The notes beneath the pieces were generated by a model. That model searched no databases and was not told where the DNA came from. It saw nothing but the letters and a program-made list of their open reading frames with translations. From a virus, in IMG/VR virus record IMGVR_UViG_3300032285_002034, positions 1 to 21,114 of that record: a stretch of DNA of 21,114 bases; one strand, 5' to 3'. Both the position numbers and the translations under genes were made by a program. Positions within the stretch are counted from its first letter, which is position 1; the number at the start of each line of letters is the position of its first letter. Positions 395-16,217 of the stretch are shown here, one piece after another.

Positions 395-411
395 TTATTG
401 AACACGGTCCT

Positions 412-461
412 GCGAGCCATAAGTCGCTAAGAATAAGGTTGCCGGCCATAAGCGGTAGGAG
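412..461 (+). promoter_or_regulatory. Two-hairpin leader with identical 8-base loops before the polymerase gene
   Basis: Hairpin 1 has a 4-bp stem (412-415 GCGA with 424-427 TCGC) and loop GCCATAAG at 416-423. Hairpin 2 has a stem of about 5 bp (440-444 with 453-457, including one G.U pair) and the same loop GCCATAAG at 445-452. The 3' arm of hairpin 2 touches the Shine-Dalgarno AGGAG (457-461), six bases before the ATG. In T4 and RB69 the DNA polymerase represses its own translation by binding a hairpin with an 8-base loop next to its ribosome binding site. The position, loop size and exact loop duplication fit an autogenous operator of that kind. The loop sequence differs from that of T4. 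The function is inferred. Confidence 0.6.
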
Positions 462-467
462 AAAATT

Positions 468-3137
468 ATGAGTTACGTAGATGCCATATGGGATCGCGAC
501 AACGATATTGTCAAAGTCGTTGAACGAGATCCAAAGCAAGGAAGGGTATTCCAAAACTACCCAGCAAGATATTTGTTTTATTACCCTGATCCAAAGGGCA
601 AATATAAATCAATCCACGGTGAAGGCTTATCGCGAATCACCTGTAAGAACAATAAAGAATTCCAAAAAGAACTACGCATTCACAGCAATCAGAGATTGTT
701 TGAAAGCGACATCAAGCCAGTGTTCCGTTGTCTCGAAGATAACTACCTAGGCAAAGATGCTCCAAAACTAAATGTAGCGTTTTTCGATATTGAGGTGGAC
801 TTTGATCCAGAACGTGGTTATGCATCGCCGGAAGATGCGTTCATGCCAATCACTGCAATTGCTGTTCACCTACAATGGATGGATACACTAGTATGTCTTG
901 CAGTACCTCCAAAGAAAGTTAGTATGGAAGATGCCAAGGAAATGGTCAAAGATTTTCCTAACACTATCTTATTTGAAACAGAAGCAGAAATGTTAGAAAC
1001 ATTCCTGACATTGATCGAAGATGCTGATGTACTAAGTGGTTGGAACAGTGAAGGATTCGATATTCCCTATACTGTCAACCGTGTCATCAAAGCACTGAGC
1101 AAAGACGATACTCGTAAATTTTGTCTATGGGATCAGTTTCCTAAGAAACGTGAATATGAAAAATACGGGAAGCAGGCTGTTACATATGACCTCATTGGTC
1201 GTGTACACGTTGACAGTCTAGAACTATATCGCAAGTATACCTATGAAGAACGCCATAGTTATCGCCTAGATGCGATTGCTGAATACGAATTAGGTGAAAC
1301 TAAAACACAGTATGAAGGTACACTTGATCAACTGTACAATAATGACTTCCGTAAGTTTATCGAATATAACAGACAAGACTGTGCGCTTCTAGATAAGTTA
1401 GACAAGAAATTAAAATTTATCGACCTGGCTAATACTGTTGCTCATGAAAATACAGTGCTGATTCAAACTACAATGGGTGCTGTGGCTGTTACTGAACAGG
1501 CTATTATTAATGAAGCACACCATAGAGGCATGATTGTGCCTACTCGTAAAAATAGAGATGACTTAACTGACACACAGGCCGCAGGTGCTTATGTTGCCTA
1601 TCCTAAGAAAGGCTTACATGACTGGATTGGATCAATGGATATTAACAGTCTGTATCCGTCAGCTATTCGTGCGCTCAACATGGGTCCAGAAACTATTATT
1701 GGGCAGTTGCGTCCACAATATACCAAAGAAGAGATTGAAGCAAAGATTGCCAAAGGCAACAGCTTTGCGGCCGCTTGGGAAGGAAAGTTTGGTACCAATG
1801 AATATGAATTTGTCATGAACAAAGACAAAGTCAATGACATTATTGTTGATTGGGAAACTGGCTCAACTGATGTACTAAGCGGTGCTCAAATCTATGACAT
1901 GATCTTTGAAAGCAACCAACCCTGGATGCTCAGTGCCAATGGTACAATATTTACATATGAATACGAAGGCATTATTCCTGGTTTACTAAAACGTTGGTAC
2001 AGTGAACGTAAGGACATGCAGAAGAAACTTAAAGAGGCAATTGCCGCGGAGAATAAAATTGAAGAAGAGTACTGGGATAAAAGACAACTTGTTAAAAAGA
2101 TTAACCTCAACAGCCTCTATGGTGCTATTCTTAATGCTGGTTGCCGTTTTTTCGACAATCGTATTGGTCAGTCAACCACACTTACTGGGCGATGCATTGC
2201 TCGTCACATGGCCGGTAAAATAAACGAAGTTATTACTGGAGAATATAACCATGTGGGCAAATCTATTATATACGGTGACACTGACAGTGCTTATTTTAGT
2301 GCTTTTAGTACTCTCCGAAAAGAAATAGAAAAGAAAGAAATCCCTTGGGACAAAGATTCGGTAGTTCAACTTTACGATACTATTGCAGAAGAAGTAAACT
2401 CTACATTCCCTCAATATATGTTAGATGCATTCCATGTACCTAAAAGCAGAGGTGAAGTTATTAAGGCAGGTCGAGAAATTGTAGCCAGCAAGGGCCTGTT
2501 CATTACCAAGAAGCGTTATGCTGTACTGTACTATGACAAAGAAGGCAAGCGTAGTGACATCGACGGCAAGCCAGGAAAGATCAAGGCCATGGGCCTGGAT
2601 TTGAAGCGTTCAGATACTCCAGAATTTATGCAGAAGTTTTTGGAAGAAGTGTTAACTAAGGTGCTTAATGGTAGCGAAGAAGAAGAAATTCTCGACATGA
2701 TCAGTGTATTCCGAACTGAGTTTAAGAATAGACCAGGATGGGAGAAGGGCAGTCCAAAACGTGCCAATAACATCACTGAGTACGAGGCCAAAGAAAAGAA
2801 ACAAGGCAAGGCCAATATGCCCGGACATGTTCGTGCTAGTATTAACTGGAATACCTTAAAACGTATGAACAGTGACAAGTACAGTCAACAGATCGTCGAC
2901 GGTATGAAAGTGATCGTTTGTAAAATGAAGGATAATCCGTTAGGATACACTTCAGTAGCATACCCGGTAGACGAAATGCGTTTACCAAAGTGGTTTCAAG
3001 AACTACCGTTTGACCACGGTGAAATGGAAGCAACTATTATTAACAATAAGTTAGAAAACCTTATTGGAGTGTTGGAATGGGACCTAGAGTCAACAACACA
3101 AAATAATACTTTCGGCAGTTTGTTTAGTTTTGAGTAA
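468..3137 (+). CDS. 43: Family B DNA polymerase, T4 gp43 type
   Basis: This is the replicative DNA polymerase with 3'-5' proofreading. Its 889 residues are close to the 898 of T4 gp43. The exonuclease motifs are visible: Exo I DIE at 107-109, Exo II NSEGFDIPY at 193-201 and Exo III YNRQD at 300-304. The polymerase motifs follow in order: motif A DINSLYPS at 391-398, motif B KKINLNSLYG at 543-552 and motif C YGDTDS at 602-607. KKRYAVLYYD lies further on. All metal-binding acidic residues look intact. The C-terminus ends NTFGSLFSFE, in the position of the clamp-binding tail of T4 polymerase. The ATG follows AGGAG at 6 bases. The next gene is the sliding clamp, so the two holoenzyme components are adjacent. 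The upstream hairpin pair suggests translational control. Confidence 0.97.
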   Translation: MSYVDAIWDRDNDIVKVVERDPKQGRVFQNYPARYLFYYPDPKGKYKSIHGEGLSRITCKNNKEFQKELRIHSNQRLFESDIKPVFRCLEDNYLGKDAPKLNVAFFDIEVDFDPERGYASPEDAFMPITAIAVHLQWMDTLVCLAVPPKKVSMEDAKEMVKDFPNTILFETEAEMLETFLTLIEDADVLSGWNSEGFDIPYTVNRVIKALSKDDTRKFCLWDQFPKKREYEKYGKQAVTYDLIGRVHVDSLELYRKYTYEERHSYRLDAIAEYELGETKTQYEGTLDQLYNNDFRKFIEYNRQDCALLDKLDKKLKFIDLANTVAHENTVLIQTTMGAVAVTEQAIINEAHHRGMIVPTRKNRDDLTDTQAAGAYVAYPKKGLHDWIGSMDINSLYPSAIRALNMGPETIIGQLRPQYTKEEIEAKIAKGNSFAAAWEGKFGTNEYEFVMNKDKVNDIIVDWETGSTDVLSGAQIYDMIFESNQPWMLSANGTIFTYEYEGIIPGLLKRWYSERKDMQKKLKEAIAAENKIEEEYWDKRQLVKKINLNSLYGAILNAGCRFFDNRIGQSTTLTGRCIARHMAGKINEVITGEYNHVGKSIIYGDTDSAYFSAFSTLRKEIEKKEIPWDKDSVVQLYDTIAEEVNSTFPQYMLDAFHVPKSRGEVIKAGREIVASKGLFITKKRYAVLYYDKEGKRSDIDGKPGKIKAMGLDLKRSDTPEFMQKFLEEVLTKVLNGSEEEEILDMISVFRTEFKNRPGWEKGSPKRANNITEYEAKEKKQGKANMPGHVRASINWNTLKRMNSDKYSQQIVDGMKVIVCKMKDNPLGYTSVAYPVDEMRLPKWFQELPFDHGEMEATIINNKLENLIGVLEWDLESTTQNNTFGSLFSFE

Positions 3138-3191: not shown

Positions 3192-3926
3192 ATGCAAGAC
3201 TTACTAAAAGACATCGTATCTCATACTCACAATCTCGGCTTTCTAAATATTGTCAAGATCACAGGAGACGAGACAAAAACAGCAATCGACTCTATGGCAG
3301 ATGACCGTAGTGTTATTATGCAGGCAGAAACCAGCGGACCATACCCAGATATGATCGGTGTGTTTGGTATGCCGCAACTTAATAAATTAAAATTCCATTT
3401 GGACTGCCCAGAATATAAAGAAGGTGCGTCAATTGAAATAGTAAAAGCAGAACGCAACGGGGATGAAATCCCAGTGGGTTTACATTTTGAAAATGCTACA
3501 GGTGATTTTAAAAACGACTATCGTTTTATGAACACTGAGATTATTAATGAAAAACTCAAAACAGTTAAATTCCGCGGAGTTAAGTGGGATGTAGAAGTTG
3601 CGCCAACTGTACAGGCTATTCAACGTTTTAATTTCCAAGCAACCGCTAACAATGAACACACAACATTTTTAGCTAAAACTGAAAATGGTAATTTAAAATT
3701 CATTTTTGGTGACCAAAGTACACACGGCGGTGAATTTGTTTTTGCACAAGGTGTAGGCGGAAACCTAAATAAAGCATGGACTTGGCCTGTAGCCAGTGTT
3801 TTAAGTATCCTTAAAATTGCAGATGCCAACAATGCTAAGATTGGTTTTAGTAATGAAGGTGCTATGCAGATTGTTTTAGATAGCGGTATTGCTACCTACA
3901 AATACATTATTCCAGCACAGGCATGA
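3192..3926 (+). CDS. 45: Sliding clamp, T4 gp45 type
   Basis: This is the DNA polymerase processivity clamp. At 244 residues it is slightly longer than T4 gp45 (228). The sequence fits marine T4-like clamps: an N-terminal ITGDETKTAIDSM segment at about 23-35, a central beta-rich portion, and the C-terminal GIATYKYIIPAQA ending that is characteristic of the family. It would form a ring on DNA and tether the polymerase. In T4 the clamp also binds late transcription factors. It follows gene 43 directly, unlike T4, where 45 precedes 44, 62, regA and 43. The ATG has an AGGA ribosome site and its own sigma70-like promoter. The stop overlaps the next start (ATGA). Confidence 0.88.
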   Translation: MQDLLKDIVSHTHNLGFLNIVKITGDETKTAIDSMADDRSVIMQAETSGPYPDMIGVFGMPQLNKLKFHLDCPEYKEGASIEIVKAERNGDEIPVGLHFENATGDFKNDYRFMNTEIINEKLKTVKFRGVKWDVEVAPTVQAIQRFNFQATANNEHTTFLAKTENGNLKFIFGDQSTHGGEFVFAQGVGGNLNKAWTWPVASVLSILKIADANNAKIGFSNEGAMQIVLDSGIATYKYIIPAQA

Positions 3927-9086: not shown

Positions 9087-9869
9087 TTGACAGATAGTAA
9101 AAAATTAGTAGAAGAAGCACCGTACCATCCTGGATACGAAGATGCCGCAATGAAAATGAGCGACAAAGGCTACGAAGAAGGATATCTTCATGGCGCTATT
9201 CGTGCTAGAATGAAACGTGAAGGCAAACGGTTTTGGGCTGGCGATAATATTAGCGAGTACGTTAAAGACGACTTCGACAAAGAATGGCTTATTAATGAAG
9301 CAACCAAAGCATTTGAAGGTGTACTAGATGCACTTTTAATCGATCGTGAGAACGATCCTAATAGTAAAGGTACTGCTCGCCGACTGGCCAAGATGTACTT
9401 TAATGAAATAATGGCAGGAAGATATGAACCAGCACCAGACGCAACAGCATTTCCAAACGACACGCAGGACCGCTACGAAGGTATGTTGGTTGTACGTAGT
9501 GAGTTGCGTAGTATGTGCAGTCATCATCACCAACCTGTTTCTGGTGTTGCTTATATTGGTATTATTGCGGCACAGAAACTTATTGGACTCAGCAAATACA
9601 CACGTATTGCCCAGTGGTGTGCAAGACGAGGTACTCTCCAGGAGGAACTTTGTAATGACATTGCCCGCGAAATTAGCCGAGCTACTGACTCAGAAAACGT
9701 AGCAGTCTACATTCAAGCAGTTCACGGATGTTGCGAGAATCGCGGCATTATGGCACATAGCTCATTAACTCAAACTACTGTACTCAAAGGTTCTTTTAAT
9801 ACAGATCCTGCTACTAAGAAAGAGTTTTTCGATAACATTAAACTGCAACAAGAGTTTGCACCACGATGA
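9087..9869 (+). CDS. folE: GTP cyclohydrolase I (FolE), TTG start
   Basis: FolE converts GTP to dihydroneopterin triphosphate, the first step toward folate and 7-deazaguanines. The 260-residue protein has family motifs: GTARRLAKM at 95-103, SMCSHHHQP at 142-150, KLIGLSKYTRIAQ at 164-176, RRGTLQEEL at 180-188 and HGCCENRG at 213-220. By analogy with E. coli the zinc ligands are Cys144, His147 and Cys215. An N-terminal extension makes it about 40 residues longer than E. coli FolE (222). The frame is closed by TAA at 9078, so the only early start is TTG at 9087, preceded by CGGAG at 9 bases. The next ATG is residue 22. Given dpdA and queE nearby, it probably feeds DNA modification rather than folate synthesis. 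Confidence 0.92.
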   Translation: MTDSKKLVEEAPYHPGYEDAAMKMSDKGYEEGYLHGAIRARMKREGKRFWAGDNISEYVKDDFDKEWLINEATKAFEGVLDALLIDRENDPNSKGTARRLAKMYFNEIMAGRYEPAPDATAFPNDTQDRYEGMLVVRSELRSMCSHHHQPVSGVAYIGIIAAQKLIGLSKYTRIAQWCARRGTLQEELCNDIAREISRATDSENVAVYIQAVHGCCENRGIMAHSSLTQTTVLKGSFNTDPATKKEFFDNIKLQQEFAPR

Positions 9870-15156: not shown

Positions 15157-15367
15157 AGATATTGCAGATAAGCTATTTGAAAAAATGAAAGCTATGCAGA
15201 AATTTGAAGTCACACAACCTGTAGAACCAAATTGGTTACCAAGGGGTGTTATTCCGTTCGATATACGGGTTAAAGATGGTATTGCTACATTTGAAGTATA
15301 TGCCATGTCATTAGACGAAGCAGTTAGATTAGTAGAAACATATGTGAAAGATAGAGACGATGAGTAA
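15143..15367 (+). CDS. Small protein, 74 aa, unknown
   Basis: The protein has an amphipathic N-terminal helix (KDIADKLFEKMKAMQKF) followed by a probable beta hairpin (IPFDIRVKDGIATFEVYA) and another helix (LDEAVRLVETYVKD). No family is recognised. It overlaps the preceding ORF by 14 bases and the queE start by ATGA. It may be co-translated with queE, but nothing shows a functional tie. Confidence 0.72.
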   Translation: MSTAKDIADKLFEKMKAMQKFEVTQPVEPNWLPRGVIPFDIRVKDGIATFEVYAMSLDEAVRLVETYVKDRDDE

Positions 15368-16217
15368 AATTAAATTAGCTGAATTATTTTACAGCATACA
15401 AGGCGAAGGTCGCTATATGGGCGTTCCTTCTGTTTTCTTGCGTACATTTGGATGTAATTTTAAATGTCAAGGCTTTGGTATGCCTCGCGGAGAATTAAGC
15501 GAAGAAGCAAACGAAATTGCCGAAGTTGCTCATATGTTTAATAAGTATGAAGATTTACCACTAGTAAGCACAGGTTGTGACAGCTATGCTAGTTGGGATC
15601 CTCGTTTTAAAGAACTTAGTCCACTGGTTGAAACTGACGGTATTGTAGAACGCATTATGGAAATGCTACCGCACGGTGAGTGGCGTGATGAGCATTTGGT
15701 TATTACAGGTGGTGAGCCATTGCTAGGCTGGCAGAAGCAATATCCAGATTTGTTGTCGCATCCTAAGATGCAGTCATTAAAAGAAATTACATTTGAAACT
15801 AATGGTTCAATGCGTTTAACAAAAGACTTTAGACAATATTTGTTAAATTGGTCATTAGGACGCAAAGATAGAGGGCGTAATGCATTAACATTCAGTGTTA
15901 GCGCAAAACTACCTTGTTCAGGCGAGCCATGGGCCGATGCTATTAAACCAGAAGTAGTATGTGCCTATGAAGAAGTAGGTTATACATATTTGAAGTTTGT
16001 TGTAGCAACAGAAGAGGACCTTGTAGATGCAGATCGAGCAGTTGAAGAATATCGTGCGGCAGGGTTTAAAGGTCCTGTGTATGTTATGCCTGTTGGTGGT
16101 GTTGAGCGGGTGTACACTCTTAATAATCGATCAGTGGCAGAGATGGCAATGCGAAAAGGATGGCGGTACAGTGATCGACTACAAGTGCCACTGTTCAAGA
16201 ACGAATGGGGAACCTGA
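15360..16217 (+). CDS. queE: 7-carboxy-7-deazaguanine synthase (QueE), radical SAM
   Basis: QueE converts carboxytetrahydropterin to 7-carboxy-7-deazaguanine using SAM and a 4Fe-4S cluster. The N-terminus LAELFYSIQGEG (6-17) and RTFGCNFKC (28-36) are typical, as are TGGEPLL at 116-122 and FETNGS, and the later FSVSAKLPCSGE region. In ordinary radical SAM enzymes the third Cys follows two residues after the second; here Cys32 and Cys36 are followed only at Cys73 (GCDSYASW, matching the usual CDTxYxW). About 34 residues are inserted in the cluster loop. The enzyme is 285 residues, longer than many QueE proteins. It would supply the base for DpdA. Overlap with the previous gene is ATGA. Confidence 0.92.
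   Translation: MSKIKLAELFYSIQGEGRYMGVPSVFLRTFGCNFKCQGFGMPRGELSEEANEIAEVAHMFNKYEDLPLVSTGCDSYASWDPRFKELSPLVETDGIVERIMEMLPHGEWRDEHLVITGGEPLLGWQKQYPDLLSHPKMQSLKEITFETNGSMRLTKDFRQYLLNWSLGRKDRGRNALTFSVSAKLPCSGEPWADAIKPEVVCAYEEVGYTYLKFVVATEEDLVDADRAVEEYRAAGFKGPVYVMPVGGVERVYTLNNRSVAEMAMRKGWRYSDRLQVPLFKNEWGT

Follow-up and report, generated by a model that had tools for sequence, protein, structure and literature searches.

Here we report that the leader of a family-B DNA polymerase gene in the viral record IMGVR_UViG_3300032285_002034, of which positions 1 to 21,114 were analysed (21,114 nucleotides (nt), hereafter the window), carries two small RNA units in tandem which, on comparative grounds, are H-type pseudoknots. 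The units keep their pairing through compensatory changes in many relatives, are found before polymerase genes only, and lie at the ribosome-binding site. We consider it probable that together they form a translational operator, bound most likely by the polymerase itself.

The polymerase gene (468-3137, plus strand; 889 amino acids; Pfam DNA_pol_B and exo1, PHROG 262) is separated by a leader of 85 nt from an open reading frame (ORF) of 95 amino acids that ends at 382. An earlier note, made from the letters of this 21-kb record, had pointed to two hairpins with an identical 8-base loop, 29 nt apart, the second adjoining the Shine-Dalgarno sequence (AGGAG, 457-461, plus strand, 6 nt before the ATG at 468). 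Both hairpins lie where it placed them: GCGA (412-415), GCCATAAG (416-423) and TCGC (424-427) make up unit 1, and GCCG (441-444), GCCATAAG (445-452) and CGGT (453-456) make up unit 2. The evidence in the window sequence alone is weak. GCCATAAG occurs in it at these two loops only, yet 15 of 100 shuffled versions contain at least two copies. Nor does the leader fold better than shuffled sequences do (z about 0.5; the single hairpins give -0.5 and -0.8). A long-range fold that would hide the Shine-Dalgarno sequence through a UCCU near 408-411 was rejected as not conserved, since these positions form a loop that varies among relatives (L1, below).

Comparison with relatives confirmed the tandem structure as real. 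When the polymerase was used as query, 80 viral contigs with 81-90% identity were found, from which 74 distinct leaders were aligned (alignment A2); a unit-wise MAFFT alignment, which staggered the GGU strands described below, was not used for the counts. Both units are present in all leaders of these relatives with widely differing stems, those of unit 1 including GCGA/TCGC, ATCA/TGAT, GTCA/TGAC and GCGG/CCGC. In the hairpin stems (S2), changes on both sides were found at 10 of 10 pairs, five per unit, and 94-95% of cells are paired, a level reached by none of 500 shuffles and from which slid controls fall to 14-50%. The earlier note had seen in the two hairpins the mark of selection on loop plus structure, and had anticipated compensating stem changes and an invariant loop in related leaders. 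The stem changes were found and bear out the structural half of this claim, whereas the same loop recurs in both units in only 10 of 81 distinct tandem leaders, and its conserved parts are the GCC strand and the A-A further on.

Nor are the eight loop bases free, as had been supposed, because three of them pair upstream. Each unit has, a few bases ahead of its hairpin, a GGU that is complementary to the first three loop bases, GCC, and among the 74 leaders of A2 the first pair of this second stem (S1) is G-C in 68 and A-U in 2, the second G-C in all 74, and the third U.G in 58, C-G in 9 and U-A in 3; the few unpaired cells come from rows with the GGU one base closer. With further scans the set grew to 414 leaders of polymerase genes, some of them identical, from which the hairpin proximal to the Shine-Dalgarno sequence was extracted by demanding a C at the second loop place and A-A near the loop end, but no S1 pairing. 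It is present in 277 of them, and the S1 strands match in 276 (GGU:GCC, AGU:GCU, GGC:GCC, AGC:GCU, GGU:ACC, GGG:CCC). A loop GCC goes with an upstream GGU or GGC in 235 of these 277 units, all 37 copies of GCU go with AGU or AGC, and ACC occurs with GGU in three units and CCC with GGG in one. The sole non-match, L092, comes from a script reading shifted by one base, and is GGU:GCC once the shift is corrected.

Polymerase trees place two changes from G-C to A-U in unit 2 and two more in unit 1 (L033 and L073); unit 1 also gained GGU:ACC three times and GGC:GCC about nine times. In L033 and L073, AGU:GCU in unit 1 stands beside an unchanged GGU:GCC in unit 2, so that S1 pairing takes place within a unit, and cross-unit (kissing) pairing is ruled out by the same two leaders. 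As S1 and S2 cross, each unit is, judged by this covariation, an H-type pseudoknot of two crossing helices, each with compensatory changes; two mutually exclusive alternative folds are less likely.

In the window, pseudoknot 1 (all features on the plus strand) begins with the S1 5' strand GGU at 406-408, followed by loop L1 (CCU, 409-411), the S2 5' strand GCGA (412-415), the S1 3' strand GCC (416-418, the first three bases of what had been taken for the loop), loop L3 (AUAAG, 419-423) and the S2 3' strand UCGC (424-427). The GGU pairs with 416-418, a complementarity kept in relatives, with S1 96.4% paired in the 74 leaders, and GCGA pairs with 424-427, where 5 of 5 modelled pairs covary. L1 varies among relatives, and the S1-to-S1' distance is fixed at 7 nt in most unit-1 copies. 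A stands at L3 positions 1, 3 and 4 in 81 of 81 tandem leaders, a count from a pattern that demanded those bases and with which the free alignment A2 agrees. Pseudoknot 2 repeats this order, with GGU at 437-439 (complementary to 445-447), L1 reduced to U at 440 (1-3 nt among relatives), GCCG at 441-444 (5 of 5 modelled pairs covary), GCC at 445-447, AUAAG at 448-452 and CGGU at 453-456, adjoining the Shine-Dalgarno sequence. Both GGU strands had escaped the earlier note.

The general plan of a unit is thus an S1 of 3 base pairs (bp), an L1 of 1-3 nt, an S2 of 4-6 bp, no L2 and an A-rich L3 of 5 nt, about 22 nt in all; unit 1 has A-Y-A-A-R as its L3, unit 2 N-N-A-A-R. The two loops are spaced 28-31 nt apart (29 in 52 of the 81 distinct tandem leaders). 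In most leaders the Shine-Dalgarno sequence starts at the end of S2 or a few bases from it, and in 91 of the 277 it overlaps S2, mainly in a group where S2 reads into CGGAG. Most relatives in the window's lineage also have TAAATA 10-12 nt, and near-constantly 11 nt, before the first GGU. In the window, GATAAATA at 387-394, 11 nt before the first GGU, resembles a T4 late promoter; TATAAATA, considered as a T4-type late promoter, was not enriched genome-wide over a reversed control.

The element is specific to polymerase leaders. The only match in the window to a covariance model built for the tandem element (R1) lies at 400-469 (plus strand; 62.4 bits, E 1.2e-13), the window itself being one of the training rows of R1. 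In 15 of 15 clade records of 56-327 kb, R1 gave one strong match per record (E 1e-12 to 1e-19), always at the polymerase leader, and no second match in these records fell below E 0.3; a single-unit model (R2) was significant only at those same places. An exact-pattern scan of viral contigs with the unit-1 motif, in which no polymerase information was used, gave at least 120 matches, and among the matches listed a polymerase start lies 30-49 nt downstream in 120 of 120. The polymerase is the sole gene found with a tandem pseudoknot leader. R2 had no significant match in T4, nor in eight cultured jumbo phages whose polymerases are related, and the leaders of these eight are without the element. 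Rfam gave no match above gathering score for the window and seven divergent relatives, earlier motif catalogues being checked through Rfam only.

In distant polymerase groups the pseudoknot proximal to the Shine-Dalgarno sequence is kept, and the upstream unit is a different hairpin, GAGUCG-stem-(A)CN..-stem-CAUG, located about 40-70 nt before the polymerase start (L207, L220, L224, L245, L333, L371-L447). Among 50 distinct copies, the base before GAGUCG and the loop base after C form C:G in 21, A:U in 17, U:A in 4, G:C in 2 and U:G in 1; the shuffled mean is 21.8, and none of 2000 shuffles reaches 45. On the tree, of 10 independent pairs that differ in the base before GAGUCG, about 8 are concordant and none discordant (sign test p ~0.008). 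Because of this covariation the GAGUCG-type unit is probably a pseudoknot too, with a shorter S1. The group around L187 has the proximal unit only. Two GCC-type sites are a property of the window's lineage, and elsewhere the upstream site differs or is missing. The two-site arrangement proposed in the earlier note holds as regards two sites with conserved spacing, but the GCC-type pair is limited to a lineage.

The distribution is also patchy, with about 25 changes on the tree for the absence of the element, an approximate count, as are those that follow, given a FastTree tree with long branches and some "absent" leaders that were misread (e.g., L010, L054 and L067). A near-consensus sigma-70 promoter (10-12 of 12) lies within the last 70 nt of 18 of 69 representative leaders without the element, versus 0 of 107 with it, as if one control had replaced the other. 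Near-perfect TTGACA/TATAAT within 70 nt of the start codon was seen in the pseudoknot-less leaders L455, L457, L459, L486 and L495-L528.

The position at the ribosome-binding site, the single-gene specificity, the compensatory stems and the steady unpaired adenines fit a protein-bound translational operator. Because the downstream pseudoknot touches or overlaps the Shine-Dalgarno sequence, its folded or protein-bound form would block 30S binding. Polymerase in excess of primer-template would then bind the leader and shut off its own synthesis, and the upstream pseudoknot, at its nearly fixed 29-nt spacing, would be a further site, where another polymerase could bind or through which binding could become cooperative. 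A stronger form of this proposal, which we put forward tentatively, is a two-site cooperative sensor in which two polymerases, or both polymerases of one replisome, would occupy the tandem pseudoknots and set a sharp threshold, the upstream site having been replaced elsewhere by a different pseudoknot without loss of function.

The polymerase is suggested as the ligand by analogy with phage T4, whose gp43 represses its own mRNA through a hairpin with an 8-nt loop (PMC3014915), AGCCU-AAUAACUC-GGGCU in the T4 leader sequence. Like the gene 43 operator of T4 and RB69, the element is located in the leader of a family-B polymerase gene and touches the ribosome-binding site, with a stem of about 4-6 bp, 8 nt between the strands and sequence-conserved unpaired bases. 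The T4 operator is a single hairpin with the loop AAUAACUC, described with "no evidence" of a pseudoknot (PMC3014915), whereas the leaders described here have two pseudoknots, spaced 28-31 nt apart, with GCC-A-Y-A-A-R, and not a single pseudoknot-free hairpin with a UAAC/UAAA-type loop. The likeness to T4 gp43 control drawn in the earlier note is thus retained for the gene, the position and the operator analogy, but not for the fold.

A parallel in fold is the leader of gene 32 (single-stranded DNA-binding protein, SSB) of T4, T2 and RB69, an H-type pseudoknot before a phage replication gene, and autogenous control by T4 gp32 acts through it (PMC535899); for the polymerase leader such control is our proposal. 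In the gene 32 leader there is one pseudoknot, about 67 nt upstream, which serves to nucleate cooperative binding over an A+U-rich stretch, while the polymerase leader has very small units in tandem, placed right at the Shine-Dalgarno sequence; no UUAAA-type repeats of the gene 32 kind occur between unit 2 and the ATG in the window leader. Escherichia coli rpsO (S15) likewise has a pseudoknot in a translational operator, with feedback repression of the kind proposed here, but gene and ligand are different and, in a comparison of architecture made without detail, no sequence relation was seen. A 2010 review considered that the gene 32 pseudoknot may be the sole viral pseudoknot for translational autoregulation and listed the gene 43 operator as a hairpin (PMC3014915). 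The element is a real RNA family; by analogy it would resemble the T4 gene 43 operator in its working, without belonging to it by fold, and is most likely a new, pseudoknot-based version of gene 43-type polymerase control.

Several points weigh against polymerase-mediated repression. The RNA fold is unlike the T4/RB69 operator, the polymerase is only distantly related to that of T4, and some T4-related gp43 proteins do not show autoregulation (PMC3014915). Many lineages do without the element, which is therefore not essential. Uniqueness to one gene would be predicted equally by a single-target trans-acting factor, a small molecule or a role in mRNA stability.

Of the alternatives, it is unlikely, though worth keeping in view, that the operator is bound by another phage or host protein (e.g., a RegA-like repressor, clamp loader, SSB or ribosomal protein) for which the polymerase mRNA is the main structured target. 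Pseudoknot operators do serve as binding sites for T4 gp32 and ribosomal protein S15 (PMC3014915, PMC535899), but these lie in the proteins' own mRNAs and control their own genes, whereas the element here precedes the polymerase gene only, and the sites of RegA are said to lack structure and to be scattered over many genes (PMC3014915). Slightly less probable still is an intrinsic mRNA element without a ligand, in which the pseudoknots would guard the 5' end or fix a constant translation rate. The near-constant TAAATA upstream is compatible with a transcript that starts just before pseudoknot 1, but the folding energy does not exceed that of shuffles, the element is confined to the ribosome-binding site of a single gene, and the steadiness of the unpaired A-A of L3 while the stems drift suggests recognition. 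Small A-rich H-type pseudoknots are known in riboswitches, such as preQ1-I, and the window has a GTP cyclohydrolase I gene, so that a riboswitch for a nucleotide or 7-deazaguanine precursor controlling polymerase translation was considered; we regard it as improbable, given units of about 22 nt with very few invariant positions and little space for a pocket, the absence of an Rfam family match, and the oddity of a metabolite sensor confined to a replicative polymerase. That the element acts as DNA, for example as an origin or priming site beside the replication gene that it precedes, is very improbable in view of the common G.U pairs (among the 74 leaders, U.G at the third S1 pair in 58 and G-U at one S2 pair in 22) and a placement tied to the Shine-Dalgarno sequence and start codon.

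Elsewhere in the window, a terminator-like hairpin followed by a T-rich stretch (357-370) stands at the end of the upstream ORF, near chance level. The ORF after the polymerase (3192-3926; PHROG 12062, unknown function) is about where phage Phosso has an annotated sliding clamp. The GTP cyclohydrolase I gene and a weak radical-SAM match (below the Pfam cut-off), at 9087-9869 and 15360-16217, recall 7-deazaguanine synthesis and make DNA modification possible. The polymerase had no match in the bacterial and archaeal genomes scanned, so that no host is suggested.

From an evolutionary standpoint, a tandem pseudoknot structure has been kept through hundreds of related viruses despite changes in its letters, and it represents an RNA family with strong covariation, outside Rfam, before the replicative polymerase of a broad group of uncultured phages. 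If the polymerase does bind these pseudoknots, autogenous control by phage polymerases would have evolved on RNA folds that are unrelated, and the rules of recognition could be tested directly on the many variants found in nature.
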